NCBI RefSeq assembly: GCF_012489685.1
Contig: NC_080041.1
Location: 24,107,780-24,171,779 of the forward strand
DNA length: 64,000 nt
DNA from: Lotus japonicus
Lineage: Eukaryota > Streptophyta > Magnoliopsida > Fabales > Fabaceae
Reading direction: 5' to 3'
Within the stretch, counting starts at the first letter, position 1; each line of letters starts with the position of its first letter. Below the pieces are notes generated by a model. The model did not search any database, was not told the origin of the DNA, and worked only from the letters and a program-made list of their open reading frames with translations. This document shows, in pieces, positions 155-62,826 of the stretch. Position numbers and translations under genes: made by a program.

Positions 155-244
155 AGAGCCTAAAAAAGAAGATAATTTTGCAATGTCGCGTTTCTTGTTA
201 GGACAAAAGAACTTAATACAGATCTACCCATTATAAGAGTCAAA

Positions 245-14251: not shown

Positions 14252-15466
14252 TGAAGGTATGAAAAACGGTAGAAAGGGGGGGGGGGGTTTGAATAACGTT
14301 TTCAAGATAAAACTTCCACCTTAAAGATTTAGACAAATCTTTCGAGAACTTAAGTGCTAAGAAGAAGAGATAGAAAAACACACAAGGATTTTTATCCTGG
14401 TTCACTTGATAAATCACTCAAGCTACTCCAGTCCACCCGTTAAGGTGATTTCTTCCTTCTTAGAATGAAGGCAATCCACTAATCAGGTAAAGTGTTACAA
14501 CTGCACTTGAAACCTACAAGTGACTAACAATTACACTGACTTAGCTCACACTAAGATTCACTCTCTTAGTCTTCTCTAGGATCCGATCAACCTTGATCTC
14601 CTAAAGGAACTAAACAAACTGTTTATCAAAGAATTGTTTACAAGAGATTTGCTTCTTAAAAGCTAATAGTAAACACAATGAATTTCAGATGAAAGAAAGC
14701 TTAGAAGGATTTTAATATTTCTTGCGCGTGTGTGAATGCTTCTAGCCGCTTCTTTCAATCTTCAGTCACTATTTATACTCCAAGGATTAGGGTTGAACGT
14801 TGCATGGGAAATGCTACCGTTGGAGGGCAGTTCTGGAAATTCCAGCTTCTGCTGTGGCTGAGAACGTTAGGTAGGTCGTCAGGATGGTACAGTTGCTTTT
14901 GTACTTGGATAGTGACTTGACCTTTAAACCTAGGAGACTTCTGATCAGGGGAATGCTTCATGTTGGAACTTGTGAAGCCGGTTGATCAGAGTCAGAGGGA
15001 AAGCACAGATCCTCTGACCGTTGTATCTTCTGATTCTGAACTCAGAGGGAAGTACATGGTCTTCAGAGTTTCTTGCTTCTGGACTTCAGAGTTTCCACTA
15101 TTCAGCTTCTGTATCTTCAGAGTCTTCTACACCATCAGAACATCTGAACCTTCAGTGTTTCTTGGTTGTCAGAACTTCTGGATCTTCAGAGCTTCTAGTG
15201 ACTGAGTCCATATCAGAGTTTGTGTAACTTCAGAACTTCTGAAGCTTTTCCACTGTTCATTTTGAACATGGTCAATGCGAAAGCGTTTCTTGGGTCACTC
15301 TTTATGCACAGTGCTTCTGATTCGTGTAGGATTGAATTGAGGTCAGAGCCTGTAATTAGCACACTCAGAAAAACACGTTAGAGTACCATAATTGTTCATA
15401 TCAAAAGGTTAACTTGTAATCATCAAAACATAGAGTTGTACTACTAGATCAAAACTTGATCTTACA
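14252..15466 (-). repeat. Sirevirus 3' LTR
   Basis: In element sense the LTR runs TGTAAGATCAAG to CATACCTTCA, with TG and CA ends. It has a run of G (plus strand) near 14277-14288 and many cttcagag-type motifs. It carries the promoter region of the element. Confidence 0.9.
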
Positions 15467-15480
15467 ATCTCCCCCTTTTT
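15467..15480 (-). promoter_or_regulatory. Polypurine tract of the Sirevirus
   Basis: In element sense AAAAAGGGGGAGAT directly precedes the 3' LTR start TGTAAG. It primes plus-strand DNA synthesis. Confidence 0.85.
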
Positions 15481-16209
15481 GATGATGACAAAACTAAGAT
15501 TTTTGATGAACAATTCTTAAACATTAAACTGAATTCACTCAGAGTTTAGAGATATAGAATAAGACTTATCCTTATGTGAATAGTTTATCTTGCTCATTCT
15601 GAATTCAAGTCACTGCTTGATTCTGAGCTTAGCTCCCCCTGAATCTAATACTTGATGAAAACGTTAGAAGAGTCTAGATTCTGAGCTAAATAATATAAGA
15701 GTTCAGAGTGAAAATCTTATGACATAGATGAAATAGAGTAATCAGAGCGCATAAGTAATCAGAGTCAACGGACAAGGTATCAGAGTCTTGGGTATCAGAG
15801 TCAAACTAAAATCACTTCAGAAGAAGTGAAATGTATTCCTTGTATTTGCCCAGTGACACATCTATGGTCATAAAGGTGGAACTCTTAAATTCTCCAAAAG
15901 AAAAAAAAAATCACACTAACACATCTTACACATCAAAAACTGGGTTGTACTCCCCCTTTTTGTCATAAGCAAAAAGCTTGGGGTGTGAAAAACTTAGCTT
16001 GACGTACAAGGTACTCCCCCTTAGAGAAGGTCTAAGTTTGAAGAAAATTAAAACGATGCATGAAACAGAGTTAGGCGAAATAAATAGAAGAGTTAATGCA
16101 AGAGAAGAACGTTTACCACCGGCCAAGGGAGTAAAGAAAAGGGTCAGTTACCAAGAACTTAACCTCGAGAAACTGTAGGAGCATTAACTTTCAGAGAGAA
16201 AGTGAAGTC

Positions 16210-16218
16210 TATATAAAG
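16210..16218 (+). promoter_or_regulatory. TATA box of antisense mini-gene A
   Basis: tatataaag lies 64 bp before the ATG at 16274. The mini-gene in the Gypsy element has its TATA 63 bp before its ATG. Confidence 0.6.
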
Positions 16219-16273
16219 CTATGGAGAAAGAGGTAAGCTTCACAACTCGAGCGATTTTCAGCAAAGAAAAAAA

Positions 16274-16666
16274 ATGGCATCATACATGGTAGCACTAGAG
16301 GAGCTGAGAAAGAAGGCCTTTGAGGAGGACTTGTTCCTTAACATTAGGCATCCAGAGGGTACAAAGACCATCTCAGAGCTTACACGGACACTGCTGGAGG
16401 AGGACCTGCGTCCAGAGTTGAAGAAAGACTTGAGGGAATTCCTTGCCTTCGTGGAGGAAGTGCAAGAACTCAGCCAGCTTGAACTAAAGCTGCTGGGAGA
16501 AAAAGAGATCATAGAAGGAATGCTCAAGACTTCAGAAGAGGTTCTGGAGAGGAATGAGCTGATCGTCAATTTTAACAACATCCAGTATTCACTGGATCGT
16601 CTGGAGAAAGAGAGGTCAAAGCAGCGCCAAGAGTGCAGAAGAATGAGGAGGGATCCTCCATTCTAG
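16274..16666 (+). CDS. Antisense accessory ORF (mini-gene A), unknown conserved protein
   Basis: An intact 130-codon frame runs opposite to gag-pol, between the 3' LTR and the envelope-position ORF. The protein is charged and predicted mostly helical. Its recognisable blocks are LRKKAFEEDLFLNIRHPEG, then LREFLAFVEEVQEL, and a C-terminal coiled-coil-like part ending CRRMRRDPPF. The ORF at 31141-31530 has the same blocks in the same order and nearly the same length (129 codons). It has its own TATA box and an aataaa signal at 16718-16723, so it looks like a complete transcription unit. No known domain is recognised; function unknown. It is intact although pol and the envelope-position ORF around it are broken. 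It could be an element-encoded regulator or a captured gene. Confidence 0.75.
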   Translation: MASYMVALEELRKKAFEEDLFLNIRHPEGTKTISELTRTLLEEDLRPELKKDLREFLAFVEEVQELSQLELKLLGEKEIIEGMLKTSEEVLERNELIVNFNNIQYSLDRLEKERSKQRQECRRMRRDPPF

Positions 16667-16717
16667 AATTTAGGAAAAGAGATAAATTATGTATGATGTA
16701 AACATAAACGGATTATG

Positions 16718-16723
16718 AATAAA
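16718..16723 (+). terminator. Polyadenylation signal of mini-gene A
   Basis: aataaa 52 bp after the stop codon, in AT-rich DNA, before the convergent end of the envelope-position ORF. Confidence 0.5.
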
Positions 16724-16875
16724 GAAAGTATTTTGCAAACACAATGTGACAGAGAAATATAGATATATGCATAGATAATCACAAACGAGCAAAGTAAAGT
16801 AATTAAAAAGAGAGAAACAGAAGTTAACGAAATAAAACAAAGTTAAAGAAAAATAAAAGCGAAGAGATCCTAAGG

Positions 16876-19758
16876 CTAGGGTTTATCAGATCGACGCAGA
16901 AGTTCCATCATCATTTGCTTCATTTCGATCAGCATAGACTCATGAGTGTCAAGACGTTGTTCCATGGTGTCGAGTCTGGACGAGCTGGAATGAGTGGAGC
17001 TGGAAGGAACATTCTGAGCAGCTTGATTAGCAGGAGTGGAAGCAGAAGCAACCGGAGTAAAAACCACTGGTGCCAGTCTACGGGCTTCAGCTTCAGCTTC
17101 AAGTCTCTCTGCCTCTAATCTGGCTTGTTCAGCTTGAGCTGCGGCTTGACGTGCAGCTTCTTCAGCTTCCTCTTGCTTTCTTCTGGCTTCTTCAGCAGCT
17201 GCAAGAAGCTTCTGTCTCTGTTCTTGTTCATGAAGAGCCACCCTTCGAGCAAACCTTTGCTTTGCAGCTTCGATCCTCTGACTTCCCTCTGTATGCAGGA
17301 GCTGCATCATAACTGGAACTTGAGCCACTAGCTAAGTGCTCAGACTGTTCCACTCTTCAGCCACATAGTCAGCATTCTCGCTTAGGTCAGTCTGACCTTG
17401 CACATTGCGTAGCATCAAAGAAGCTTCATGATGGAAAATATTGATGCACTCAGAGAGAGATGTGGGTCGGAGGTGAGTGTAAGGAATTATAGAGAGGTTG
17501 GTTTCAGGAGAGGCTGGATGATTGCTGCTGTGAGCTTCAGAGACACCTTGGGGAGAGCCAATGTCACAGGTTTGGACATGAGGTTCAGAGGCTCCAAGGT
17601 GTGGTTCAGAAGTTGCAACCAAAGGATTTGGTGATCTAACCGAAGAGTGGTTAGACACAGATTGTTCTGGTTCGGGTTCTGGTTGAACTGGCTCTTGTTG
17701 GTCAGGGGCAGGTTGAACTTGTTGAGCCAAAGGGTCTGCCTCATGTAAAGGATTGGCCAAGATAGGTTCATCTGGGTCTACTAGACGTTCAGGTCTAGGG
17801 CCAGGATATCTCCTAGGGCTTGGACAAGTGAGATAGTACTCTTCTAAGGTAGACACCTTTTCTTTTCTGACCTCCATGAATTTTCTAAGGGATTCAGAGT
17901 TATTGGAGGGAAAAGAGTCAGCAACATTGGTTGGGAAGGATACAGGTGTGTAGGCTGTGGAAGAGTCTGTATCAATAGTTCTGGGAGCCAGACGTTCTGA
18001 TGCTCTTGGGACAGAGTGATCAGAGGTTCTGGGTCCAGGTTCTGTTTGGTTGGGCTCTGGTTGTTCATGGATGATGGGTTCAGAAGTTAATGGGTTATAC
18101 TGGATAGTGATGGGTGAGGTTGGATCAGAGGGTCCGGTGGGTTGGTTCTGAAGCATATTCCAGAGAGGTGCTTCATTGGGAGAAGGTTGGAAAAATGAAG
18201 ACCTTGGGGAATGTGGTGGAGAGGTGGTTTGTGCAGCTGGTTGGGACTCAGGAATGGGAGTGAGTGGATTTGAAGATTGTTTGAGCAAGGCAGAGATGGG
18301 GAGTGCATCAAATAAATTCAAATCATCATCAGAAGCAACTGCAGACTTACTTGATTGTGCTGATGATCTAGTCACTCTGGCAGGAGTTTCAATCCTTCTG
18401 ATCACTTCAGCAGCTGGTTCCACCCGGGTAGGCTTCACCACTATTCTGACCTGCTTCTTCTGCTTCTTGGGAGAAGGAGGACCATCATCATTATCACCAT
18501 TGTCACCATCATCAGGCTTGCTGGTTTCATCATGTTTTCTCTTGGATTGACCAGCCTTCTTTCCTTTGTTCAGAGGGATATCTGATTCCTCAGAGGATTC
18601 TTCTAAGATCATCTTCCTCTGAACCTTCTTCGTGAGAGGAGGATCAAACTCTGGTGCAGGAGGCAGCATTCTGACGAATTCATCAACATCAATCTCGAAG
18701 CCTTGACTCCTCAGATCATCAACGAAACACCTGATTGCTTCAGGGTTGTCTGGCTGGGTCCACAAGGGAAAGTCATTCAGAGGGACTCTTCTTCTTCTGA
18801 TTTTAGAAGATGTGTCTTCATGGGCAGGAGCAATCTTCTTCTGGACAAGACCCATCTTCTTCAGAGAATTTGCAGTGAAGACATCACTGACAATAGTGGT
18901 CAGATCCTCTGTGCATCCAGCATTGACCAGATCTTGAATGAGGCCGCTCTCAATGAAGATATCAGACAGCAATCTCCCAAAAGGGATATACTTGATTGCG
19001 GACTTGATGGAGGCAGTAGTTCTCGACTTCCTGATGCATTCCTTCAGGTAGGAGAACAAGAAGAAAGGGAGGCAGAGTTTCCTCTTGTCTTGGATGAAGA
19101 CTAGCATTGCCTTCTGGCAGAAATTGATGTAATCTGGGGAACTGCCTTTTGGCCTCTGGTTGATGCAGTTCAGAAGAATCTTGTGCCAGATTCTGAGCTT
19201 GGGATGAAGATCCATCACTTTGTAATTAGTCTTGCCCGGTTTGTAATTGGTGTACAGGGCCTTGTTGGTCTCCTCCTTCGTTTGGGGTTTCAGCTTCGAT
19301 TCAGTGAACTGGAATCGATACCCACGAGCAGTTTCTGGACCAAGCAGATTCACGAAGGACTTCTCAGTAATGATGATCTTCCTTCCAAGAATGTGAGATA
19401 CCACCTGAGTATCATCGCAGTCGGCGTGCTTCCAGAATTCCTTAATCAATTTGTCATACACCGGTCCTCGAAGCCTGTTGAAGTAATTTTCCCAGCCTTG
19501 AGCTTGAACTTCAGGACGAATATCATACCCATTTGTAGCCAGATTGTCGAGATCAAATCTCCATTCTGCCAGTACTTGAAGTTCCTCAGGAGCATATACG
19601 CAGTGAATGGCACAGCCCCGTTCTGCAATCGGAATTGTCTGCTCTTGAGCTTGATCTTGAACAGGAGCTTCAGGACCCAATTGGCCTGTAGCTTGACCAA
19701 CTACTATATGAGGGAACTGAGTTGCATCTGCAGTAGCTCTTCTGGTTTGTCTCACCAT
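16876..19758 (-). pseudogene. Sirevirus envelope-position ORF (env-like), one nonsense codon
   Basis: The frame opens at ATG 19758 and runs 808 codons to a TAG at 17334-17332; the same frame then stays open to 16876, another 150 codons. The N-terminal third is globular (motifs FNRLRGPVYDKLIKEFW and LHPKLRIWHKILLNCINQR). A long Pro/Ser/Glu-rich middle follows with basic clusters, and the C-terminal part beyond the stop is a strong coiled coil rich in Ala, Glu, Gln and Arg. Sireviruses often carry an ORF of this size here, called env-like from its position; similarity to a true envelope protein is not evident and no clear membrane span is seen. The TAG most simply reads as damage. It ends close to the convergent mini-gene A. 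Confidence 0.75.
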
Positions 19759-20196
19759 TGTTGAAGAGGTTGAAGGTTTTGGGTAGAAGATGAAGGTTGA
19801 GGATGAATAGAGTGCGAGAGAGAAATTGAAGGTAAGCGGTTTTGAAAATACAAGAGAGAGTAAAAACCAAAAGTGTAGGAGATCGTGTGTGTATAGTGGG
19901 TTTTATCAAGTAACCGTTGTTGATTCAAAAGGCATTTTAAGATCAACGGTTAAAAATTAAAGACATGATAGTAACAGTAAATACACGTATCACACACAGG
20001 AGAGAAGCACATCTACACGCATCATGACAGACTGTCACACGGGCACAAGGAACTATGCATTAGAGATACTGACACACGTGTTACTGTCTCAGCTTCAGAG
20101 TCAGCACCAAAGGGTACACACACTCTGATTGAGTTACCTTCTGGACTAGACATCTTCTGATCAAGAAGTATCATAGTCAGAGGTTCTGATCCATCT

Positions 20197-23100
20197 TCAC
20201 TCTGGACAAAAATCCATGTTCAGATTTTTCAGAATAAAATTAAATCTATCCTCTGCTAAGGGCTTTGTAAAGATATCTGCCCATTGATGGTCAGTATCAA
20301 CAAACTTCAGAAGAAGTACGCCCTTCTGTACATAATCTCTAATAAAGTGATACTTTACCTCAATATGCTATGCCCTTGAATGCAAGATAGGATTCTTACT
20401 CAATGAAATTGCAGCAGTGTTATCACAATAGATTGGGATATTGCTCTCAAGGATCTGATAATCCTCCAGCTGATGTTTCATCCAGAGCATCTGAGTGCTG
20501 CATATAGCTGCTGAGATATATTCTGCCTCTGCAGTGGACAGTGCAATGGTTGATTGTCTCTTGCTTGCCCATGACACTAGATTACTTCCTAGAAATTGAC
20601 AATTTCCAGAAGTACTTTTTCTCTCTGTTCTATCTCCAGCATAATCAGCATCACAATAACCTGAAAGCTTATACTCTGATGTTTTCTTATACATCAAGCC
20701 AAGGTTAGTGGTGCCTTTCAGATACCTTAGGATCCTCTTAACAGCAGTTAAGTGGGTTTCCCTTGGGTCTGATTGGAAACGAGCACATAAATGAACACTA
20801 AATAATATATCAGGCCTAGATGCAGTTAAGTATAGAAGAGATCCTATCATGCCACGATAGAGCTTCTGACATACTTTACCACTTTCATCTTCTTTCTCCA
20901 TAATGCATGTTGGATGCATTGGAGTCTTGGCCACTGTAGATTCCAGCATGTTGAACTTCTTCAGAAGTTCTTTAGTGTACTTGCTCTGATGGATATATGT
21001 TCCTTCTGGTGTTTGATCTACTTGTATTCCCAGAAAGTACTTTAATTCTCCCATCATACTCATCTCAAATTCAGCCTGCATCATCTCAGAAAATTCTTTG
21101 CATAGAGATTGATTAGCAGAGCCAAATATATATCATCAACATAGATTTGCACAATTAAGATATCATCTTTATAAGTTTTGCAAAAGAGAGTTGTATCTAC
21201 TTTACCCCTTACAAACTCATTTTCCAGAAGGAATGAGCTGAGTCTCTCATACCATGCTCTGGGAGCTTGCTTCAGACCATAGAGTGACTTTTTCAATTTG
21301 AACACATGGTCTGGCTTCTTCTCATCTTCAAAACCTGGGGGTTGATGAACATAAACTTCCTCTGAAATTTAACCATTTAGGAAGGCACTTTTCACATCCA
21401 TCTGATGAAGAACTATGTTGTGATTTACTGAGAAAGAGATCAACAGTCTGATTGCTTCTAGTCTTGCTACTAGAGCAAATGTTTCTGTGTAGTCTATTCC
21501 TTCCTGCTGACTGTAGCCTTGAGCAACTAGCCTCGCCTTGTTTCTGACTACATCTCCTTTCTCATTCAACTTGTTTCTGAACACCCATTTTGTTCCAATT
21601 ACATGGACACTCTCAGGCTTCTTCACTAAGCTCCAAACATCGTTCTTGGAGAATTGATTCAATTCTTCTTCCATGGCCAGAATCCAATCCTTATCCTGAA
21701 GAGCTTCATCTATGGACTTGGGTTCAATTAAGGATACCAATCCTTTCAGACCAAGCAAGGTCTCTTCAGAGGGTCTGAAGGCTGATCTGGTTCTGACTGG
21801 TTCGTCTTTGTTTCCCAGAATCAATTCCTTAGGATGAGCTGCAGTGATTCTGCTCTTCTTCAGAGTTTGAGAATCAGAGGGACCAGCTTCTTCTTCTGGT
21901 TCATCTTCCTCTGGCTCAGCTTCCTCTGGAGCTTTGCCTTTGTCAGAAACATTTATGCTCATATCTGCAAACTTCTCAACTAGCTTTGACTGGTCAGAGT
22001 CAAGCTCATCGTCAAATCTAACATGAATAGACTCTTCAATAGTCTTAGCATCAGTATTATAAAATCTAAAGCCTTTAGATCTTTCAGAATAACCAAGTAA
22101 TAGACATTTAGAAGACTTAGCATCAAATTTATGCAATCTATCCTTAGTATTAAGAACATAACAAACACAACCAAAAGGATGAAAATAAGAAATGTTGGGT
22201 TTTATGTTCTTCCACAATTCATAGGGAGTCTTATTCAGAATTGGTCTCACAGAGATTCTGTTCTGAATGTAACATGCTGTATTTACTGCCTCTGCCCAAA
22301 AGTGCTTAGCCATGCCAGTTTCTTGGAGCATGGTTCTAGCCATCTCCTGAAGAGTTCTGTTCTTTCTCTCAACAACACCATTTTGTTGAGGAGTTCTGGG
22401 ACAAGAGAAATCATGTGCAATTCCATAGGAATCAAACAGACTCTCAAACTTGTCATTCTCAAACTCTCCACCATGATCACTTCTGACACGCACAATCCTA
22501 CAAGCCTTCTCGTTTTGCACTTGGGCTATAAAGGTAGAGAACACAGCATGAGACTCATCCTTGCGGGTTAGAAACTTTACCCATGTCCAGCGGCTATAGT
22601 CATCAACGATAACCATCCCATATCTCTTGCCACCTATAGATTCAGTTTTCACTGGTCCAAAAAGGTCGATATGCAGAAGTTCCAACGGCCTTGAGGTTGA
22701 GACAACATTCTTTGCCTTGAAAGGGACTTTAGTGAATTTGCCTTTCTGACATGCTTCACAAAGAGCGTCTGAAGCGAATTTCAGATTGGGTAAGCCCCTG
22801 ACAAGGTTTAGCTTGCTTAGCTGAGAAATTTTTCTCATACTGGCATGCCCTAACCGTCTATGCCATACCCACTGCTCTTCATTAACAGAAAGAAGGCACT
22901 TCACATTCTGAGCCTCCAACTCAGATAATCTGATCTTATAAATGTTGTTCTTCCTCTTGCTGTTAAACAGAACAGAGCCATCGATCTGACTTACAGCCCG
23001 GCAGGACTTTTGATTAAAGATAACATCATAACCCTTGTCAGCTAATTGACTTATAGACAATAAGTTATGAGTTAAGCCGTCTACCAATAACACATTATCA

Positions 23101-23300
23101 ATGCATGGACTACTATCTACACAAATAGTACCAGTACCGACAATTTTACCCTTTTCATTTCCTCCAAAGCCAACTTCGCCTCCATGCTTAAGTTTTAGCT
23201 CTTGGAACATACGCCTTTCTCCCGTCATGTGACGCGAGCATCCACTGTCCAGATACCATGATTGGTGTTTCAGTGGAGCTATCAAGGATATCTGCAACAT
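20197..23300 (-). pseudogene. Sirevirus pol (protease, integrase, reverse transcriptase, RNase H), broken
   Basis: In element order: aspartic protease motif LDSGCSRHM near 23240; GAG-pre-integrase zinc region WHRRLGH near 22865; integrase catalytic blocks with HIDLFGP, RSDHGGEFEN and QQNGVVERKNRT (22680-22350); reverse transcriptase with NKARLVAQGYSQ, SLYGLKQAPRAWYE and the YVDD active site at 21143-21132; RNase H with YCDADYAGD and STAEAEY. The domain order integrase before reverse transcriptase marks Copia. Damage: a stop at 21371-21369 inside RT, a one-base frameshift just after YVDD (near 21125), and a nonsense codon near 20366 in RNase H. The gag and pol frames overlap near 23190-23300. 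It cannot make full-length pol. Confidence 0.9.
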
Positions 23301-26300
23301 AGATAATCTTGTCCTTAGGTACCCACTTTCTGGGTCCTTTCTTGTTAGTTACCCCAGAGGTTCTGATCACCTTGGGTGTCTCAACATGATATTTTAAAGG
23401 AATTTTTGCATGATATTTGGACATAGAGAAAGATCCCTTTTTGAGAGGGGTTTTAGCAACTTTAGTAGGTAAAGGGTCAGGCAATATGGTACCAGAGGGA
23501 ACAAAGCATTCATACAAAGATTTAGCTTTAGGTACAGAGGGTTCATTTCTAATTGGTTTAGAATACCCAATGCCATGCATTCCATTTCTGCTTACGCCAT
23601 AGATCATTGAAGCCATCAAGCTTCTATCTACGCTCTTAGCTAAGAATCTTTGAAAAGACTTTTCATACTTAGATTCGTTTCTACAATCAGAGGCATCACA
23701 AGCAATTATTTCTTCTAACTTAGCGATCTGGTTCTTAAGCACAAAGTTAGAATTGATCAAAGCATGATTATCATTTTTCAAATCAGAAATAACCTTTTCA
23801 TGTTCAGAAGGAGTTTGAGAAACAGCAGATAAGTTCTTTTTCAACTTCTTATGCTTAGACAATAAAGAGTTATACTTATCCATGATATCAGACAAGGCAT
23901 GTTTCAGTTCAGAGGTAGAGAAAGAAGCGAATACCTCATTTTCATCGTCTGAGTTAGGATCTCCTTCTGATTCTGAGTCAGAGTCAACAGCTTCCTTTGA
24001 CTCTGCTCCTTTGTCTTTGACAATGGCCATGAGTCCTTGGACTTCACCATCAGAGTCAACATCCTCTGACTCTGATTCATCAAAAGTCACCATCAGACTC
24101 TTCTTTGTCTTGAAGTGCTTCTTTGGCTTCTTGTCCTTCTTCAATTTTGGACAATCACTTTTGTAGTGCCCTGATTCTTTGCACTCAAAGCATGTGACTT
24201 CCTTAAGTGAGGACTTCTTCTGGCCTGAGGATTTAGACATTCCTTTTGCCTTTCCAGAGCCTTTGTACTTGCTCTGCCTGTGCTTCCAGATGCGGTTGAG
24301 TCTCTTAGAGATCAGAGTCAGCTCATCTTCATCAGAATCTTCTGATGCTTCTTCAGATTCTTCTGCTTCAGCTTGGAGAGCCTTTGACTTCTCAGCCTTA
24401 GCCTTTTCAGATTTGGATTTCAAGGCTATAGATTTTTTCCTCAGATCTTGCATCTCAGAACGTTTCAGCTCATGGCATTTCAAAATGCTGATGATTTCTT
24501 CTAAACTCATATTCTCAACATCTCTTGTGAGCTCAATTGATGTCACTAAAGGCATCCAGCTTTCAGGAAGACACCTGATGACCCTATTTTAGTAGTGTTT
24601 TTAAGGTCATTTCTTTGGTTGTTTTGAGTCTTTTTGTTGAGTCTCATGTAGTGTTTCATGCATTCTCATGCATTTTTATTCTTTTCTTTAGTTTTTATTT
24701 CGTTTTGGTAATTTAGTAGTTTTTTAGGTAGTTTTCTTGCATTTTAAGTAAAGTTTAGGACTTGCATGGTTTTGTTGTGTTTTATGAGGGACTTCTTGTG
24801 CTAATGAGCTCTTGGAGCTTCTAGAATCTTCCTTGTCTTGTTGGTTAGGTTTGGAGTGCAGAAACTGAAGGAGAAGGAAGGCCAAGAAGCATGGAATTGA
24901 TGAAGAACTTAAAGAGAATTGAAAAGAGGAGTTTCAGAAGCCAAAAAGTCATTTTCAGGCGAGCTAGAGCGCCTAGGCGCTGGGAGTGGGCGCCTAGGCG
25001 CCAATAGGGTCAGAGAGCATGTTTTTCAACATGCAATTGGCGCTCAGGCACTCTGAATTGGCGCCTGAGCGCCCAGTTTCGTTTGTTTTGCCTATAAATA
25101 AGGCTTAGGCCAATTTCTTTGATTCATTTTGACATTTCACTCATTTTTGGTCAAGTTTGAGAGCTGAGGAGAACTTTGGGGCCAAGGGAGGCTTCCAACT
25201 TGTACTTTTCCTCAGGTTTTATTTACATTTTCTTCATGAATTCACTAGCCATGAGTGGCTAGTTCTCTTTTTGCTTTGGGTTAAGAGATTCTATGAAATT
25301 TTAGTTTGTTAAATCCTATCTCTATGCATGAGTCTTGATTCAATCTTGTATTTCAATTCCTTATTGCATGATTAGCTTTGGTGCACCTTTGCTATAGGCT
25401 AGATTATAATCAAATGGAAATTTGTTATGATTTAGGGACATGAATTGGAATAGATCCTTCTATACTTGCTTCTATGAATAGAGTGAGGGTAGGGTTTTGT
25501 TGGCCTGAATAGCCATGCTATCATACCTCTTATGAATGTTTAAGTAACACAAGGAATTGGGCTTATCTTTCAATTTGAGAGAATTACTTTTGTGAGGAAT
25601 CAACTAGTAAGTACATAGGCTATATCAACAAGAGTGTAATCAAGGATTCACATGCATAGGATAGGTGGACTAAAATGGATTAGATGATCAAAAACCCAAG
25701 GCAATTTTCCATCAATTGTTATTTACATCATTTTCAACATTGCTCTTATGCAAATCTTTTGTCACAATCAACCAAAATCAATTTCTAAATTTTACTGTTT
25801 TAAGAACTTGCAAACTTTAGGCTTAAATCAACAATTCTCACTCACAATCCCTGTGGTTCGATATTTTAAAACCCGGAGGTATTCGTACACTTGCGAATTG
25901 ACCAACAACACCTGATGACCCTTATGACATGATCTTTAGTTGTGTAGCTCTTGTTGAGAGGTCGTATGCCAGCTACCAGCAACTGAAATCTGGAGAACAT
26001 TTCTTCAATAGACTCATTTGGCTCCATGATGAAGGATTCATACTTTTGGATCAAAGATAATGCCTTTGATTCTTTAACTTTCTTGTTTCCTTCATGAGAC
26101 ATCTTCAGAGATTCAAAAATGCCTTTTGCAAACTCACGATCTGTAATCTTCTGGTACTCTTCATAAGAAATAGCACTTAGAAGAATTGCTCTTGCTTTGT
26201 GATGTTTTGAGTACAGCTTCTTTTGATCTGCAGTCATCTCTGACCTTGGGATCTTCTTGCCATCTGCATTAACTGGACGCTCGTAGCCATCCACAATAAT

Positions 26301-26435
26301 ATCCCAGAGATCTGCATCGAAACCAAGAAAGAAACTTTCCAGACTATCTTTCCAATATTCGAACCTTCGACCGTCGAACATAGGAGGCTTTGCATTGTAA
26401 CCATCTCTTTGAGTTTCACTGGTGGTGGCAGCCAT
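23301..26435 (-). pseudogene. Sirevirus gag, split by a solo LTR
   Basis: ATG at 26435 opens MAATTSETQRDGYNAKPPMF; the capsid-like part (FEYWKDSLESFFLG, MSHEGNKKVKESKALSLIQK) runs to 25923. There a 1332-bp solo LTR interrupts the frame; gag continues from 24570 with the CCHC zinc knuckle CFECKESGHYKSDC (about 24192-24151), an acidic Ser/Glu region and a coiled-coil part. Gag packages element RNA in cytoplasmic particles. The copy at 62897 has the same start and is uninterrupted, which confirms the insertion borders. Confidence 0.88.
24576..25907 (+). mobile_element. Solo LTR (Gypsy-like) inside Sirevirus gag
   Basis: 1332 bp with TG and CA ends (TGATGACCCTATTTT to ttgaccaaca) flanked by acacc at 24571-24575 and 25908-25912. 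A TATA box (tataaataag) near 25093 shows plus orientation. No internal domain remains, so it is the product of recombination between two LTRs. It contains palindromes gcgcctaggcgc (24969-24980) and ggcgcctaggcgcc (24989-25002). Confidence 0.85.
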
Positions 26436-26490
26436 TGTTTTTCACACCGGCCCGGATCACTGAACACTGTTAGGTGTGGTAATCAGAACT

Positions 26491-26505
26491 TGCGCTCTGA
26501 TACCA
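26491..26505 (-). promoter_or_regulatory. Primer-binding site (initiator tRNA-Met) of the Sirevirus
   Basis: In element sense TGGTATCAGAGCGCA, two bases after the 5' LTR end; complementary to the 3' end of initiator methionine tRNA. Confidence 0.88.
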
Positions 26506-26507
26506 AT

Positions 26508-27720
26508 TGAAGGTATGAAAAACGGTAGAAAGGGGGGGGGGGTTTGAATAACGTTTTCAAGATAAAACTTCCACCTTAAAGATTTAGACAAATCTTTCGA
26601 GAACTTAAGTGCTAAGTAGAAGAGATAGAAAAGCACACAAGGATTTTTATCCTAGTTCACTTGATAAATCACTCAAGCTACTCCAGTCCACCCGTTAAGG
26701 TGATTTCTTCCTTCTTAGAATGAAGGCAATCCACTAATCAGGTAAAGTGTTACAACTGCACTTGAAACCTACAAGTGACTAACAATTACACTGACTTAGC
26801 TCACACTAAGATTCACTCTCTTAGTCTTCTCTAGGATCCGATCAACCTTGATCTCCTAAAGGAACTAAACAAACTGTTTATCAAAGAATTGTTTACAAGA
26901 GATTTGCTTCTGAAAAGCTAATAGTAAACACAATGAATTTCAGATGAAAGAAAGCTTAGAAGGATTTGAATATTTCTTGCGCGTGTGTGAATGCTTCTAG
27001 CCGCTTCTTTCAATCTTCAGTCACTATTTATACTCCAAGGATTAGGGTTGAACGTTGCATGGGAAATGCTACCGTTGGAGGGCAGTTCTGGAAATTCCAG
27101 CTTCTGCTGTGGCTGAGAACGTTAGGTAGGTCGTCAGGATGGTACAGTTGCTTTTGTACTTGGATAGTGACTTGACCTTTAAACCTAGGAGACTTCTGAT
27201 CAGGGGAATGCTTCATGTTGGAACTTGTGAAGCCGGTTGATCAGAGTCAGAGGGAAAGCACAGATCCTCTGACCGCTGTATCTTCTGATTCTGAACTCAG
27301 AGGGAAGTACATGGTCTTCAGAGTTTCTTGCTTCTGGACTTCAGAGTTTCCACTATTCAGCTTCTGTATCTTCAGAGTCTTCTACACCATCAGAACATCT
27401 GAACCTTCAGTGTTTCTTGGTTGTCAGAACTTCTGGATCTTCAGAGCTTCTAGTGACTGAGTCCATATCAGAGTTTGTGTAACTTCAGAACTTCTGAAGC
27501 TTTTCACTGTTCATTTTGAACATGGTCAATGCGAAAGCGTTTCTTGGGTCACTCTTTATGCACAGTGCTTCTGATTCGTGTGGGATTGAATTGAGGTCAG
27601 AGCCTGTAATTAGCACACTCAGAAAAACACGTTAGAGTACCATAATTGTTCATATCAAAAGGTTAACTTGTAATCATCAAAACATAGAGTTGTACTACTA
27701 GATCAAAACTTAATCTTACA
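26508..27720 (-). repeat. Sirevirus 5' LTR
   Basis: 1213 bp, nearly identical to 14252-15466. The small difference between the LTRs indicates a recent insertion. Confidence 0.9.
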
Positions 27721-27725
27721 ATAAA

Positions 27726-27947
27726 TTCAGTAACTTTGGTCTCATAGAATATATATTGCCAAATTAATATTAGGTTCATTAAAAGATTTCTCGTGTTTGT
27801 CTACCAGTCATTCTCTGCCACCAAATGTGCTTACTTGGAGCTTAACATGCTTTTGTGGCTATTAATGTATCTAGTATGAATTCAACATAGGCAAGTTGAT
27901 GATGATATGAACTGAAATTGATTTCTTTAAATAATATGATCGTCAGA
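27726..27947 (+). repeat. Copy B (right part) of the 560-bp repeat
   Basis: Continues from 14246 after the Sirevirus: taactttggtc, tcattctctg, caaatgtgcttac, tatgaattcaacat, then aataatatgatcgtc. It ends at the Gypsy insertion. Confidence 0.7.
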
Positions 27948-28222
27948 TGTTCCATCATGAACATTGAGATGAGGTATAGTACCTAAGGTGCAAGGAACGT
28001 GATGTGAGATTCCTAGAGAGAGTGAGAGTGTAACCGCTTAGAGAGAGAAATTAACTGAATTTCAAGCTTGTTATTTCTCAAATGAGCCAAAAGTCCTTTA
28101 CAATTGGTAATCCTCCCCTATTTATAGTTGGGGGAGTTGGGCCTAGCGCCTATTAATCATCCTAATGGGCCAATTGGGCCTCAGGGACAAAGACCCAAGT
28201 CCCTGATGCGCTCCTCGCCCTA
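27948..28222 (-). repeat. Gypsy 3' LTR, truncated
   Basis: Matches 38652-38930 with several substitutions and one small indel, then breaks off at ccctaggc and continues in internal-type sequence. The outermost 5' part of the LTR is therefore deleted. A TATA element (ctatttatag, read on the minus strand) lies near 28116. Confidence 0.75.
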
Positions 28223-28905
28223 GGCATGAGAGCTAAGTGTGTCTTTAAACAAAAGAGACAAGGTGATGGACGTAAGAAACTGACTAATGCTAAACATAAG
28301 GCACGGAAGTAAAGAGCAATTGCCAACATGGTTTAGTAATCTAAAGCCTAAAAATTTAAAATTTTGAACGCCTCGTCACGTTCCCTTGGCGGCTTGAGTC
28401 CACAAGCCAGCTTGTGGTGATGACGCGTGATTTGCTCGCCCCGTCGTGGCCACGCACGCGCCTTGCACCTTGAGACCTTAAAGCCTTAGGGCCTACGACA
28501 CGTGGCGGCCTAGGTCTGCAAAATCTCAACTGCTCCCCTAAACGTCCCTTCGAATCCTCAAAAAGCCTGTCAGTTTTGGATACTGGGCCAATTATCTGCA
28601 ACCGTTCGCAATTTCCACTTACTGAGTCATTCCCATTTCCCGAAATCCCGCAACAACAATCATTTCTTCCGTTGTTATGGGGCACGATCTTCCACCTTTC
28701 CTCCACATTTTTCCAACAACTTCCCTCAACCATTACCCTTTGCTTATAAAGACGTTGTTCCCCTTACCTCCTGATCTTTTCACGACGCGCGCATTTCCCT
28801 CTGCAAACCATTGTCTTTGCTTTCATAACTTCCCACGCGCTGCCCTTCCTTCCGGCAGACCTCCACACCGTTGAAGTAACCCTTACTCCTTATACCCCTT
28901 TCGTG

Positions 28906-30720
28906 ATGACGCCGAAACGCCGTACCAGAAACTCCAATCGCGACGTCACCGTCGCCACCCCTTTACAGTGCGTTCCTCCTGCTGACCTGCCTCCCCCAGG
29001 GGGAGCTCCGCTTGAAGAAAAAGACATCGTTGCCTTCTGAACAAGGACCTGGGAATCCTTGTCGGCCCCTGCCGCTAGGGATCTGCCCGTCGGGACGATG
29101 CCCATCCAAATATCTAGCTTGTATTAGTGGTCATCCATTTGTGCAATTTCTACGGAATCCGGTGGGTTTTTCCATGAGAAACCTCTTGACGCTCTTATGT
29201 ACTACGGCGTGTGCACGGCCACCGAGCATCCTTGGCTCCGTCCTCAAGACAACCACGTGGGTGTTCCACACTTCTTCTATGCGTATGGATACATGTTCAC
29301 CAGTTTGGGAATTAGGTTCCCCTTTTCTCCCTTTATCTGCTCCGTGCTGCATAGCATCAATGTCGCAACCAGCTAACTTCACCCCAACAGTTGGGCTTTC
29401 CTACGATGCTTTGAAATCCTCTGTGGCGTGATTCAACAAGAGCCTGAACCCTCCCACTTCTTCTATTTCTATCGCGTGTCCACCCAGCCATCGCCTCCAC
29501 GTAACTGGGTTTCCCTTGAAGCTAGACCTGAACGTCAGCGCTTTAACCCTTTTTGGTCCAACATTACCGTCGATTTGGCTCGGAAGTTCTTCAGGGTCGT
29601 GGTGTCCCATGAGTATCCCGAGGTTTTTACCCATAGGGACGGCACCGCCCGATTTCCCTTCTACTGGACCCAAGAGGTGCTCCAAGTAATTGACCCACCT
29701 GAGGATTCCTTAACCCCTGAGGACAAAGCTGTCATCGGCTTCCTGGCCAGACTCCTGGTTTTAGACTGCACTCGTGTAATCGGTAAATCCCCTTTTTCCT
29801 TATTTACTTCGTCCTTCCCGCTTTCTGCTAGCTTACCCTCACCGCTCTTTGCCTCAGGAAAAGTACGCCAGGCCAGTGAGGGCCTCCTTGCCGCCTTTGA
29901 GAAGAAAGGGAACGTCTCGTTCCCCCCTCCCCCCACCAAATTAATTTGAAGGGCGACAAAACGTCCTTGTCAAAAGTAAGTGGGAAGAGGCCTCTCGGCG
30001 AGGAGGCTCCTCGCCCCTCCCCAAAGAGATCGCACTCTGTGGCTGCTGCATCGTCCTATGGCGGGGAAAGAACTCCTGTTATCTCCGTAGCTTTTTATGA
30101 ATCTGAGGAGACTCCCAAGTCGAACCAGCCTGGCGGACCCTTAGAGGTGGCTCCAGTTTCTTCGCCTCTTGCCCGGGACGGTTCCATCGACATGCCTTCC
30201 CCCTGTGCGAAAGTTATCCTACCACCTTCTGTTCAGAACCCGATGCCATCTGCCAGTGCACCATTGCCCAGTCATAGTCCCGCCCCGCCTTCGGGCTCTG
30301 CAAATCGAGAGCTGCCATATTCTCTGACCCTGACGTCAACGCAAATTATGAGAATGGATGAAATGGTCAAGCAACAAGGCTTGGACAGGGTTCAGAAAGT
30401 GCACTGGCAATGGCGTTCCACGTTTTTCTTCATTATAAGAAGTCCGCACAGGATGCCGAAGTGTTACGATCAGAGGTGGCGCGCCTCCACGCCCTCAACG
30501 CTGAATTTGTTGAGGAGCGTAGGGTGCTCCTCGCCCAGCTAGATGCCAAAGAAACCTCGTTTTCCAAAGAGTTGGCCGAGCAAACTGGTCGTGCCGAGGT
30601 TAGCCTGGAATTCCGAGACAAGAGAATTTCTGATTTGGAGAAGGCCCTTGCGAAGCTTTAACAGGAGGTTCAGAAAGAATCCGAAGCAAAAGAGGATCTG
30701 AAGATGATGTAGAGGGAAAC
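28906..30720 (+). pseudogene. Antisense ORF with gypsy-type putative transposase (PF04195-like) domain
   Basis: Antisense to gag-pol. A TATA box (tataaa, 28745-28750) precedes ATG 28906. The reading frame gives a Pro-rich start (PPPGGAP), then GIRFPFSPFICSVLHSIN, HPNSWAFLRCFEILCG, HFFYFYRV and NWVSLEARPE. This is the pattern of the plant family called putative gypsy-type transposon domain (Transposase_28), whose function is unknown despite the name. A GTAAAT...CTCAG intron of 75 bp at 29783-29857 is likely. The C-terminal part (30410-30660) is a coiled coil. Three nonsense codons (29037, about 29125, about 29372) and frameshifts near 29940 and 30400 make it a pseudogene. Confidence 0.65.
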
Positions 30721-31077
30721 AAAGAAAGTTAGCGGTTTTTAGGTTGATTTTGTAATTACGATTTATTTTTTGTGGTTTATCTTTTAATGCAAATTCTATT
30801 TTTTTTTTTGAATATTCCTGCTTCCCTTCCCCGCCGACGTCGTTCCTGCTACGAGCTTTTTCGCCGCAGAGTTCTAGGTTGTGAACCGTGCGGGTCACCC
30901 TTCCTTTAGAGTCTTAACCCTTGTACCTGAAACGCCTCTTTCCCAATTTTCAACGGAGGGTTACCATTGACCACCGGCCAGGAATACTTATGACTTTATT
31001 GTGAGGTGCACCATTTCTCAAGGAAAACTCCTCGAGAAACTGCCTTGGCAATAACTCTTGGAAACTGAACTTAGTGT

Positions 31078-31083
31078 ATAAAT
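31078..31083 (+). promoter_or_regulatory. TATA box of antisense mini-gene B
   Basis: tataaa 63 bp before the ATG at 31141, matching the spacing of mini-gene A. Confidence 0.6.
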
Positions 31084-31140
31084 GGCTGTTAGCTCATAAC
31101 AGTCTTCACATCTCATCTGTTTCCCGACTCAAACATCACA

Positions 31141-31530
31141 ATGACACCCTTCGAAAGTTGTATTAGCAAGCTGAGGAAAAAAGCTTTTGATAAGGACCTC
31201 TATATCAACGTTAGGCACCCAGAGGATCCTAGCGTCTACCAGCTGACCAATCGGTTGCTGGGCATGGGCCTAAGCCCCGAGATGGACAACAAACTCAGAT
31301 GGTTCCTTGCATTTGTGGAGGAGCTCCAGAATTTGTTCCAGGGGGAGCCGGACAATTATGCCGATATTCGAGCGGCGGAGGCTTTACTGAAGGCCGCGGC
31401 GGAGAGTCCTGAGAGGCAGGAAGCTCGTCAGAGTTTAGTCCAGTTGGAGTACAAACAGCACCGCCTAAAGCTTGAAAAAACAGAGTTTCATCGTCAATGT
31501 AGGATTATGAGAAAAAATCCTCCATTTTAA
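31141..31530 (+). CDS. Antisense accessory ORF (mini-gene B), homologue of 16274-16666
   Basis: An intact 129-codon frame antisense to gag-pol of the Gypsy element. Blocks shared with mini-gene A in the same order: LRKKAF..DL..N.RHPE, LT..LL...L.PE, LR.FLAFVEE.Q.L, then a helical C-terminal part with ER and QY...RL, ending RQCRIMRKNPPF against a similar CRRMRRDPPF. By eye somewhat over a third of positions are identical. The conserved Cys near the end and the PPF terminus are shared. It has its own TATA box and an AT-rich 3' flank. Everything else in this element is broken, yet this ORF is open. No known family is recognised. Confidence 0.75.
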   Translation: MTPFESCISKLRKKAFDKDLYINVRHPEDPSVYQLTNRLLGMGLSPEMDNKLRWFLAFVEELQNLFQGEPDNYADIRAAEALLKAAAESPERQEARQSLVQLEYKQHRLKLEKTEFHRQCRIMRKNPPF

Positions 31531-31559
31531 GATGTAATAAGAATGTTATGAATAAGTTT

Positions 31560-32350
31560 TTATTTTATTTTATATAAATGCCTCTAGATGTGTGTTGATA
31601 TGAATGCGAGAGCAGATAAATAATGAACGGAAAAAATGAAAACGAGTGAATAGATAGATGGGCGAGGCGAGCGGGCCACCCGGCCATGATTGCCATAACA
31701 TGGCGAGGCGAGCGGGCCGCCGTGATTGCGGGCGGTGTCGCCATGAATTCCGCCTTTCGTTTCCTTGTAGCGTAGCACGTGTTTTCAGTGCTTAAAGCTT
31801 TGAGAGTGTGTCACATATAACTAGGACTTCCGCTCGGTATTGGACCGAGGCTTTTGTTCACACGCATATTTCCCGTAAGAGCAGGTGTGGCCCCACCAGC
31901 CTTATTAGACAGGGTCTTACAGTTGCTCGAGGCCCAATGGCCATATAGGTTGCCCGAGACTTTCTGCCTAGTTAAAAGTGCTCGCCCGCGTTTCGGGAAG
32001 ACTTGACTCGCGCATATTTCGAGGAGGTTCTTTGGATAAGAAGCTTATCCGCACACGTCGCCTGCAGGGGCTATGGTCAGCGCCGGACTTTCTGGAGCGA
32101 TCCCGAGACATCGAGGTCGTGTTGGGATCGCCACCTTTAGGGAATTTTTTCCACCAAGCTGCCGTCTCAGTTTAATCATTAGCAGTATTGCTGAGAATAT
32201 CCTTTTGTATTTGATTTTCGTAAATTTTTACATCGAGGGATGCCTCGTTAAAAAACTCCCGTGTCGGAGAAAAAGAGTGCATCTTTAGTTTTAGTCCTAA
32301 TTTTTCGGTTGTTTCCTCGTCATATTCCCACTTTGCGACCGCTCCCTTGA
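31560..32350 (-). other. Non-coding Gypsy interior; RT/integrase region deleted
   Basis: Contains in element sense gatgcactctttttctccga and a following gagttttttaacgaggc, a stretch typical of the region behind integrase in Tat-type Gypsy elements. No RT, RNase H or integrase motif is found between it and the protease ORF. Confidence 0.5.
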
Positions 32351-33651
32351 TCAGAGGATCGTACCCAGTATTCCGTCCTTGTCGCCCTGCTGGGTGCGTC
32401 GGGCTGATTTCATTGGCCTCTTACTCCTATCATCGGATTGTCCGCATTTTCTCTTATCCTGACAACACTGCAACTGACTATCCTTTCCTTCTGCCTCTCC
32501 CTTTCCTTCAGTCCCAGCTTGCCGGCAAATTCCCTTTTTTCCTGCCTTCAACGCTGCCCGTTCTTCCCTCTCTCTTCCCTTTTGCTCGGGTGGGCCGAAT
32601 GTGGGCAACCCCCCGAAAGTGGTTTCATTTCGTTCCCAGCTGAAAAGGTCAACGTTGTCCTCTACCAACTCACTCAAGCGCCGTTCTTGCTCAAGGGTGA
32701 GCCTAGGCTTGATCGCCAGTACGCCTCTTCTGGATGCATCCATGTCCCAGCTCTCCCCATACCGCTCGCTATTTCTACGAGTAAAGTATCTGTCTCGCCC
32801 AGCCTTCCGGGCCCCCTCGCCCTGACTTCCCCCTTTCTTTGTCTTATTCGCTATCCTCCCGCAGACCAGTGGATACTTTACCGCAAGGTGGGGCGTGGAT
32901 GTCACTGCATGGAGGCGACTTAAAGTGTCCCGTCCTACGATGACGTCATAAACCGCTTCAACCTGCAAGACCAGATATCTTACCCTCAGGAGCTCGGCGA
33001 CCTCGCCCTCTCCAAAGACTGTGTCCACTTCCACATAGCCGCGTACCCGAACCCGCTTTCTTGAGAATCCTACCAGGTTTCCTGTGTATGGCATCAAATC
33101 CTTGTCTGTCAGCCCCAACTGCCCGAATGCGTCCCCGTAGATGATATCCACTAACCTGCCTTGGTCCAAAAGCATCCTTTGCACATTGAAACCATTAATT
33201 CTTACCCTTACCACCAGCGGATCATCTCTATGGGCCTCGACTCCCTCCAAATCTGCGGATGATTCTACTATATCTGGGTGTCGGCACCCGAATGGAGCTA
33301 GATATCCCTGGACCGATGCCACCGTCTCTACCCACTTTTGCCCCGCTGCTGATGTGATGTCACCATCGTAAAGGCCCTCTGGGATTGCGTTAACCGTTAT
33401 GGCTATCGCCCCGCCCCTGTCGTCGACGTCTTCCTCTATTTCCTTTCCTTTCGCCATATTCATCTTCTCATTCACTGCATTTGGCGCTCGCTTCATGCTG
33501 TCCCTGTCCAACCCATGTCCTGCGACTCGTGGTTGTCTCGCCTTGATCAACTGCCTAATTTGGCCCTTCAGAGATAAACAGTCACTGGTGTTATGGCCTT
33601 CCAGGTTGTGGTATTCACACCACTTGGACCGACCCTTGACGTTGTGCCGGG
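32351..33651 (-). pseudogene. Gypsy protease region with zinc-knuckle-like motif, C-terminal part degenerate
   Basis: On the minus strand the frame up to the solo LTR starts with WCEYHNLEGHNTSDC, a zinc-knuckle-like CxxH/GH/C motif, then LKGQIRQLIKA. From about 33250 it has a retropepsin pattern: LVVRVRINGFNVQRMLLDQG (where Asp-Gln-Gly replaces the usual Asp-Ser/Thr-Gly of the active site), VDIIYGDAFGQLGL, VGFSRKRVRVRGYVEVDT, VIVGRDTL. Then LTLEQERRLSELVEDNVDLFSW, the usual linker to reverse transcriptase, appears, but RT itself is absent and the frame runs on through low-quality sequence to 32351. The changed catalytic motif suggests an inactive protease. Confidence 0.75.
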
Positions 33652-36280: not shown

Positions 36281-36616
36281 AAGTGGCAGTGGAGTGGATA
36301 TTTTCACATGACTGTCCCGTCTTTCAGGGCGTTATCAAGTGGTAGTGGAGTGGATATTTTCACATGACTATCCCGTCTTGCGAGATGTTATCAAGTGACA
36401 GTGGAGTGGATATTTTCACATGACTATCCCGTCCTTCGAGGCGTTACTTAGTGACAGTGGACTGAATATTTTCACAGGACTGTCCCGTCTTGCGAGACGT
36501 TATCAAGTGGCAGTGGAGTGGATGTTTTCACATGACTGTCCCGTCCTTTGAGGCGTTATCAAGTGGTAGTGGAGTGGATATTTTCACAGGACTGTCCCGT
36601 CTTGCGAGACGTTATT
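36281..36616 (+). repeat. 56-bp minisatellite, six copies
   Basis: Units start near 36281, 36337, 36393, 36449, 36505 and 36561. Each contains agtgga, atattttcaca, gact and cccgtc followed by a variable ttgcgaga or tttgaggc part and gttat. It lies in the right half of the Tekay solo LTR. Confidence 0.9.
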
Positions 36617-36630
36617 GTTTGATTGATGTT

Positions 36631-36850
36631 GTTGAGGATTGTCGATATCTGATTTGATGTTATATTGTTGAGGATCATTGATATCTGATTTGTTGTTATA
36701 TTGTTGAGGATTGATGATATCTGATTTGATGTTATATTGTTGAGGATTATTGATATCAGCTGATTTGTCGTTATATTGTTGAGGATTGTTGATATCTGAT
36801 TTGATGTTATGTTGTTGACGTTATTGTTATCTGAATTAACCTATGTTGTT
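36631..36850 (+). repeat. 36-bp minisatellite, about six copies
   Basis: gttgaggat starts at 36631, 36667, 36703, 36739, 36778 and near 36814 (partly altered). Units contain ttgatatctgatttg and gttatatt. It directly follows the 56-bp array. Confidence 0.85.
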
Positions 36851-37501
36851 AAGTTATTGATTCCTGAGTTAGTTTATGTTGTTAAGTTTTGTTGGTATCT
36901 GTTTTAAAACCATATCGTTGATTTTGCTGATATACTGATATGTTTAATTCTGTTAAATATATGATTCGATTTCATGATTTATAGGGTGAGTTGTCATCTA
37001 TCCTGAATTAAATTGGTAGCTTACTTACCATGGCATGTATTAGATTTGAATAACATGCTTTTCTCTTTTATACGTGGTAATTGCATGGAGTTAACCCTTT
37101 CTGTTTGCTACTTGTTGTTTGGGCGCTTAACGCTATTAGGCGATGGAGAATCTTCGATGGAGTTTGACCTTCGTACGAGTCGGAGATGAGAGCTTGAAAA
37201 ACTGTGGAAGACTTTAAGAATAGAATCGGGTGTAGAGTTAGAGCCTTGAATTAGAGAGCAAACCATTATTGGTTTAAGCTTGCATAACGATTTTAGAAAT
37301 TTATATTTGAGGTTTCGGGTACTCGCCTTGTTCAAGACTAGATGTAATTTGATTTCCGTTGGGAGTATGCATGACATGTTTCGGAAATACTTTGAGAGAA
37401 AAAAAAATAATACTCGTTTTATAAATCCTTTTGGAAAACATTGCATATTTACTTTATCAGGTTATTACCGTAACCCGTGAAATTCGGGGCGTTACACCGG
37501 G

Positions 37502-38633: not shown

Positions 38634-38651
38634 CCCACAGACGGCGCCAAA
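38634..38651 (-). promoter_or_regulatory. Primer-binding region of the Gypsy element
   Basis: In element sense the 5' LTR is followed by TTTGGCGCCGTCTGTGG, the form seen behind LTRs of many Tat-type elements. The exact tRNA is not assigned. Confidence 0.55.
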
Positions 38652-62824: not shown

Positions 62825-62826
62825 AT

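Follow-up and report, generated by a model that had tools for sequence, protein, structure and literature searches.

A short antisense gene with a predicted promoter in Sirevirus and Tat-like Gypsy retrotransposons of Lotus japonicus

A stretch of 64,000 nucleotides of Lotus japonicus DNA (NC_080041.1, positions 24,107,780 to 24,171,779; this whole stretch is called the window in the following) contains two neighbouring long terminal repeat (LTR) retrotransposons, a Copia element of the Sirevirus type and a Tat-like Gypsy element. Each of them carries a short open reading frame (ORF) antisense to its own coding region, here called antisense accessory ORF (aORF). Are these two aORFs one and the same gene, and if so, how did it come to reside in elements of two superfamilies? 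We consider it fairly probable that Sireviruses carry, in their 3´ part and in antisense orientation, a protein gene with its own TATA promoter, and that a Tat-like Gypsy lineage acquired a cassette of about 0.5 kb, comprising promoter and gene, most likely in a single event; in this lineage the cassette is located downstream of an antisense TRP28 gene.

Two homologous antisense ORFs and their upstream regions

The aORF of the Copia element, referred to as the Sirevirus-1 form, encodes 130 amino acids (aa) and is located at 16274-16666 on the plus strand of the window (ORF listing, BLASTP, ratio of non-synonymous to synonymous substitution rates (dN/dS), genome copies); the one of the Gypsy element, the Tat form, encodes 129 aa and is located at 31141-31530, also on the plus strand (ORF listing, BLASTP, genome copies, tree). 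The two proteins match from end to end in BLASTP with one gap and 52 of 130 positions identical (40%; 83 bits, E=2e-26), and among six aligned frames the annotated one scores highest (BLOSUM 251, runner-up 117). The sole tblastx match between both window elements (E<=1) was 16163-16672 versus 31030-31536, and tblastn with the aORFs found nothing further better than E 4 in the 64-kb window.

A sequence-only reading of this DNA had proposed that both ORFs, with these lengths and at these locations, are antisense to gag/pol of their own element, are situated past the coding region and before the 3´ LTR, encode homologous proteins and are preceded by a TATA box 63-64 bp before the ATG. All of this is borne out, with the match being significant over the full length and the TATA beginning at 64 bp in both copies (the Copia copy has a second, overlapping TATA at 62 bp). 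It had also found it of interest that both ORFs are open while other genes of these elements are broken, an argument that is weak for the window pair alone. The Copia element is young, its LTRs being identical at 1209 of 1218 aligned bases, with 2 gaps, so that the openness of its aORF says little, and the chance of the Gypsy aORF remaining open by luck is about 0.29. It is the genome copies and dN/dS that carry the argument.

The genome of the window comprises 553.7 Mb in 65 contigs, six of which are large. Searches with the 130-aa and 129-aa queries gave 4360 and 4170 first-look candidates, respectively; the best 150 of each were scored, with identities of 85-100% for the former and 65-100% for the latter, and both sets are spread over all six large contigs. 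By hand count, 138 of the 150 best-scoring copies of the 130-aa form are without internal stop and 12 have one; for the 129-aa form the numbers are 112 and 38. Intact copies are over-represented in these counts because the lists consist of the best-scoring copies.

Forty copies were read in their context, 20 per form and not chosen at random (two of the 130-aa copies were picked for carrying a stop). Copies of the 130-aa form have an env-like gene adjoining in the opposite orientation in 19 of 20 cases, in L024 with only 39 aa of it, and 19 of 20 are found with the LTR of one Sirevirus family; L026 has neither the env-like gene nor the family LTR, but two polypurine tracts. In eight of 20 cases (L033-L036, L042, L046-L048) the 129-aa form occurs in a second Sirevirus group (Sirevirus-2), with a Sirevirus LTR and one or more polypurine tracts; in 11 of 20 it follows the C-terminal region of TRP28 in the same orientation, which makes 12 Tat-like copies including that of the window. 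L037 is unclassified due to an LTR nested there. Seen from the side of TRP28, 33 of the 60 best among 150 places are followed by an aORF of the same orientation at a distance of 716-1137 bp from start to start; this count was made from listings against the best 150 aORFs, and the remaining 27 are without an aORF among those listed.

Similarity of the window pair extends into the upstream region. The predicted promoter of the Copia aORF (16115-16273, plus strand) contains ACCACCGGCCA at 16115, CTCGAGAAACTG at 16164, TAACT at 16185, TATA at 16210 and CTTCACA at 16238, and that of the Gypsy aORF (30970-31140, plus strand) contains the same motifs at 30970, 31031, 31052, 31077 and 31104. The offsets from the ATG are identical in both window copies for CTCGAGAAACTG (-110), TAACT (-89) and TATA (-64). 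Alignment of the upstream 200 bp scored 37, compared to a maximum of 32 in 1000 dinucleotide shuffles (0/1000 reach the score); the stretch 200-400 bp upstream has no excess similarity (901/1000 shuffles are as good), and the 200 bp 3´ of the stops align no better than chance (477/1000 equal it).

Across 42 copies, CTCGAGAAACTG is exact in 30 (17 of 21 Sirevirus-1, 7 of 8 Sirevirus-2 and 6 of 12 Tat copies) and has at most two mismatches in the remainder, and ACCACCGGCCA is exact in 34 (20 of 21, 6 of 8 and 8 of 12) with at most three mismatches elsewhere. Other upstream 12-mers mostly have about 3-6 mismatches on average across the same 42 copies, and the offsets of the motifs shift by a few bases inside each group. 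We read the conservation of CTCGAGAAACTG and ACCACCGGCCA in these alignments as the footprint of selected sites. A copy of CTCGAGAAACTG with one mismatch is also located at window 31920-31931 (minus strand), about 390 bp past the stop of the Gypsy aORF, and may be there by chance. Downstream, TTATGAATAA was considered as a common poly(A) signal 3´ of both stops (91/2000 shuffles), but it is not consistent across copies: it is present in 17 of 21 Sirevirus-1, 1 of 8 Sirevirus-2 and 2 of 12 Tat copies, the latter two groups having at least 60 bp of downstream sequence in only 4 of 8 and 5 of 12 copies.

Origin of the shared cassette

In a tree of 45 proteins, Sirevirus-1 and two database proteins split from all others (support 100/100), and the Tat copies together with L037 form one clade within Sirevirus-2 (96/93). 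Reduced trees, which leave out L037 and the database rows, likewise contain Tat as one clade (97/99 for protein, 100/100 for DNA) with Sirevirus-2 split around it, and a forced monophyly of Sirevirus-2 is rejected by the DNA (approximately unbiased test, p-AU 0.009). With free placement on all branches, the most clock-like root lies on the Sirevirus-1 stem. These trees suggest that the cassette most likely passed once from Sirevirus to Tat-like Gypsy, and the move between superfamilies proposed by the sequence-only reading is thereby given a favoured direction. The transfer is not recent, since dS between Sirevirus-2 and Tat is about 1.6.

What was passed on can be delimited. When four Sirevirus-2 loci were compared with four Tat loci over 7 kb, the cassette was the sole same-strand block in all 16 pairs (509-551 columns); it starts about 110-130 bp upstream of the ATG and ends 2-40 bp past the stop. 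Between the two window elements, too, the shared block is limited to the cassette, so that an insertion of one of them into the other does not seem to be the source of either copy.

A passage in the reverse direction, from Tat Gypsy to Sirevirus, is unlikely in our view. In its favour, antisense ORFs are usually found in Tat elements (PMC11963269, PMC6317226; here and below, papers are cited for their accessible parts), and one undivided Sirevirus-2 clade is compatible with the protein tree; the deepest split, however, lies within Sirevirus (Sirevirus-1 versus the rest, 100/100) with Tat nested, and the smallest root-to-tip spread attained with a root on the Tat stem is 0.64, compared to 0.22 on the Sirevirus-1 stem.

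The substitution pattern bears on the nature of the product. For the window pair omega (dN/dS) is 0.11-0.13, with omega=1 rejected (twice the log-likelihood difference, 2dlnL, 38) and dS saturated. Median omega is 0.26 within Sirevirus-1 (13 of 15 pairs reject 1), 0.21 within Sirevirus-2 (14 of 15) and 0.29 within Tat (13 of 15); it is 0.135 from Sirevirus-2 to Tat (15 of 15), and 0.20 and 0.10 from Sirevirus-1 to the other two groups (10 of 10 pairs each). The pairs are random samples and are not independent of each other. By this measure the aORF is a protein-coding gene under purifying selection. The sequence-only reading had named three outcomes that would speak against it, a lack of significant match between the two proteins, dN/dS near 1 across the copies and one element lying inside the other, and none of them arose: the match is significant, dN/dS is well under 1 for nearly all pairs tested, and the similarity of the window elements is confined to the cassette.

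It might also be that antisense RNA is the product, with the ORF being secondary and transcription towards pol generating double-stranded RNA by which the element is restrained. This idea has been raised for antisense ORFs or transcripts in reviews (PMC7264820, PMC12786077) and agrees with the conservation of the predicted promoter, but it appears quite unlikely here, since amino acids and not DNA alone are conserved (median omega 0.10-0.29) and most of the best-scoring copies, as counted above, are free of internal stops.

Very unlikely is an independent capture of one host gene by Sirevirus and by Tat. The Tat copies lie within the Sirevirus copies on a single stem, the promoter motifs have equal offsets in both window copies, and no protein family or solved relative was found for the aORF proteins; the genome searches, which covered the best 150 copies in an intron-less reading, do leave room for a host gene. 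That the aORFs are relics or chance products, either of a nested insertion of elements or as passive hitch-hikers without function, is extremely improbable: the two elements of the window are neighbours and the Copia gag-pol is broken into several pieces, but this explanation is largely contradicted by the same-strand block consisting of the cassette alone, by the spread of the best 150 copies per form over all six large contigs with the same place inside the element in the copies read, and by the purifying selection on the aORF.

A single transfer of promoter and protein gene from Sirevirus to Tat-like Gypsy remains the reading we prefer, and several observations weigh against it. Its direction depends on the clock-like root of a tree without outgroup, and the protein tree accepts Sirevirus-2 as one clade (p-AU 0.325), with the bootstrap unsettled. 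Two of the four Tat loci (L029, L032) carry nested Sirevirus LTR or gag DNA on the opposite strand. In addition, positions 3691-4301 (minus strand) of the Sirevirus-2 locus L035 match positions 73-683 (plus strand) of the Tat-like locus L031, on its TRP28 side, over about 0.6 kb with 68% match, that is, on opposite strands. Within Tat, one of 15 pairs has the highest omega found there, about 1.89, and two of 15 fail to reject 1. The Tat-like copies were assigned to their lineage by gag, primer site and TRP28, since no reverse transcriptase (RT) was found in those examined (window, L031). The transfer may have occurred by template switching in reverse transcription between co-expressed elements. 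Finally, the net charge of the aORF proteins ranges from -13 to +2, and because of this variation a nucleic-acid-binding role gains no help.

The two elements of the window

The Copia element is encoded on the minus strand, with the 3´ LTR at 14252-15466 and the 5´ LTR at 26508-27720; a 5-bp target-site copy, ATAAA, flanks both ends, on the left of the former and on the right of the latter. Pfam detects gag in two pieces (23188-26435, minus strand; Retrotran_gag_2, zinc knuckle) and pol in two pieces (20368-23300, minus strand; integrase, RVT_2). The Copia domains Retrotran_gag_2, rve and RVT_2, together with TGGTATCAGAGC inside, at the 5´ LTR, which we take to be a tRNA-Met primer site, are those of a Sirevirus. 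A Sirevirus env-like ORF is located at 17332-19758 (minus strand; Transposase_32-like, E 4.9e-8, under the Pfam cut-off), immediately followed by a coiled-coil-like ORF rich in Ala, Glu and Arg (16876-17328, minus strand). A hallmark of Sireviruses is the polypurine tract AGGGGGAG located 10 bp before the 3´ LTR, together with several copies in the linker (PMC2829016). The window element has four such copies (15469-16021, with starts at 15469, 15633, 15950 and 16014), and the minus strand of the window contains no others. Another copy of the same Sirevirus family, about 94-95% identical and consisting of 5´ LTR and gag start, is located at 61618-64000 (plus strand), where it is cut by the window end.

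Comparison of Sirevirus forms (L036 and L033 versus the window Copia element, single pairs) gave a dS of 0.56 for the RT piece, 1.2 for gag, 1.8 for env and 1.5-2.2 for the aORF. RT is the odd one out, since its dS is below that of the others, and on these values module exchange between Sireviruses is possible.

About 220 bp beyond the end of the Copia element lies the 3´ LTR part of the Gypsy element (27941-28225, minus strand, from LTR comparison); its 5´ LTR part is located at 38645-38911 (minus strand) with the primer site TGGCGCCG adjoining. The two parts align with 252 identical, 15 different and 18 gap positions. The element contains gag (37687-38328, minus strand; Retrotrans_gag, PF03732, above the Pfam cut-off), a protease-region piece (32354-33673, minus strand), which has relatives in L029 and L031 and no Pfam match, and a broken antisense Transposase_28 (TRP28) gene (29128-30658, plus strand), which is located upstream of the aORF on the same strand. 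A Gypsy-type gag, a primer site other than that of tRNA-Met (TGGCGCCG) and an antisense Transposase_28 are characters of Tat/Retand elements; the last one is weak in the window (piece 29128-29373, E 0.041, below the cut-off) and above the cut-off in L032 (E 7.6e-8). Within the Gypsy element, 56-bp tandem repeats are located at 36226-36907, and a frame running through them has sub-threshold Pfam matches, among them DUF3783 (E 7.4e-5).

A Tat element should encode RT, dual RNase H and integrase. A scan of all 16 stop-to-stop pieces of at least 70 aa on the minus strand between 31530 and 38328 gave no match to RT, RNase H or integrase, nor did the four pieces of L031 that were scanned; we therefore use the label Tat-like. 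L031 keeps the order gag, protease region and aORF of the window Gypsy element. This Tat-like family may be non-autonomous and amplified with its antisense genes.

The protein, known antisense genes and meaning

Relatives of the aORF proteins are few. A search of a 5.8-billion protein set gave three hits for the Copia-form query, five for a five-sequence alignment and none for the Gypsy-form query; the relatives are three full-length (P0001, P0002, P0004) and two partial proteins. In the database, P0002 and P0005 are assigned to short contigs of Bradyrhizobium sp. TM233, and we infer that these are legume retrotransposon DNA inside a bacterial assembly; a literature search on this strain found nothing. 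Genome-contig and viral-contig databases contained no relatives of the aORF, and a plasmid database contained none of the 130-aa form, with which alone it was searched. Among the five full-length of seven aligned aORF proteins, 41 of 130 positions are identical.

Pfam PF04195 (TRP28) is absent from the matches of the seven proteins at E<=1, which places them outside the TRP28 family. Other domain matches were weak and inconsistent between members and were rejected: Mod_r (E 0.014), Prefoldin_2 (0.063) and TPR_19 (0.069), Cas11a on two members (E 0.01), Cucumovirus 2B on one protein only (E 0.11, residues 93-127), ribosomal S8 (E 0.42) and the best NCBIfam match (E 0.019). AlphaFold2 with a five-row alignment predicted helices only, with a predicted local distance difference test (pLDDT) score of 90; the Gypsy aORF folded alone reached 67.6, and Foldseek found no match for the model at E<=0.001. 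The earlier proposal of a self-contained accessory gene common to Sirevirus Copia and Tat-like Gypsy thus stands, while its suggestion of a role as regulator or in silencing receives no support from domain, structure or fold.

In the scheme we envisage, expression from the predicted promoter would be switched on by host factors, independently of the LTR, and the protein, predicted to be all-helical and of about 15 kDa, would be a nuclear regulator or anti-silencing adaptor. It could thereby aid the element carrying it, through transcription control or by opposing silencing. A benefit to the carrier element is suggested by the retention of the aORF in a family seemingly without RT and integrase (two loci). 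Only tentatively do we propose that the aORF is a mobile helper gene, encoding an anti-silencing or transcription-control protein with its own promoter, which went from Copia to Gypsy and was kept by this Tat-like family. If so, it would benefit its own carrier rather than supply a shareable replication enzyme, and the two conserved upstream motifs would be a host switch exploited by both superfamilies.

A regulatory function has been proposed for antisense ORFs of plant LTR elements (PMC7264820, PMC11963269), and gene23 of Grande is antisense, has its own upstream promoter and encodes a nuclear product (PMC7264820). The aORF described here is similar to those of Tat/Retand elements (TRP28, bean ORF2, Grande gene23; PMC7264820, PMC11963269, PMC4093653), being antisense, located between pol and the 3´ LTR and conserved in many copies. 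It differs from them in that it encodes another protein, of 129-130 aa and without Transposase_28 match, is an extra gene next to TRP28 and is also found in Copia. Sireviruses have a further extra gene in this 3´ region, the env-like eORF-3´F, but it is sense and large, whereas the aORF is antisense and small. In the accessible parts of the Sirevirus literature examined, no report of an antisense ORF was found.

Extra ORF types common to unrelated retroelements, LTR and Penelope-like, have been described in bdelloid rotifers (PMC5408684). These ORF3 genes resemble the present case in their distribution across unrelated retroelements; they include enzymes (DEDDy, GDSL) and occur in an animal, whereas the aORF is antisense, has no known domain, is shared along with its promoter and occurs in a plant. 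HBZ of human T-cell leukaemia virus 1 (HTLV-1) is also an antisense gene of a retroelement, an analogy named in PMC11963269. In contrast to HBZ, the promoter of the aORF is located outside the LTR, and the likeness is meant as an analogy only.

Our literature search, mostly of titles and abstracts and with few subscription journals, found no report of this aORF. Surveys of extra genes have considered longer ORFs: Neumann et al. 2019 treated extra ORFs of at least 250 codons (45 Copia and 314 Gypsy groups; PMC6317226), and Vicient 2025 used a cut-off of 600 bp and kept shorter ORFs only if they contained TRP28 (PMC11963269). The bean Gypsy ORF2 of Gao 2014 encodes 211-939 aa. In 121 angiosperm genomes, 15 unusual domains were reported, every one of them in Gypsy-type and not in Copia-type elements (PMC9289625). 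Since cut-offs of 600 bp and 250 codons exclude proteins of 129-130 aa, the aORF would not be listed in such surveys, which indicates that ORF cut-offs hide short genes of this kind.

Antisense extra genes of plant LTR elements have long been described, and their function is not known. A short antisense gene kept in two superfamilies together with the same promoter motifs offers a specific protein and a specific switch for experiments, in a host that looks like a tractable model legume. The findings indicate that Copia and Gypsy elements of plants can exchange a gene together with its promoter.

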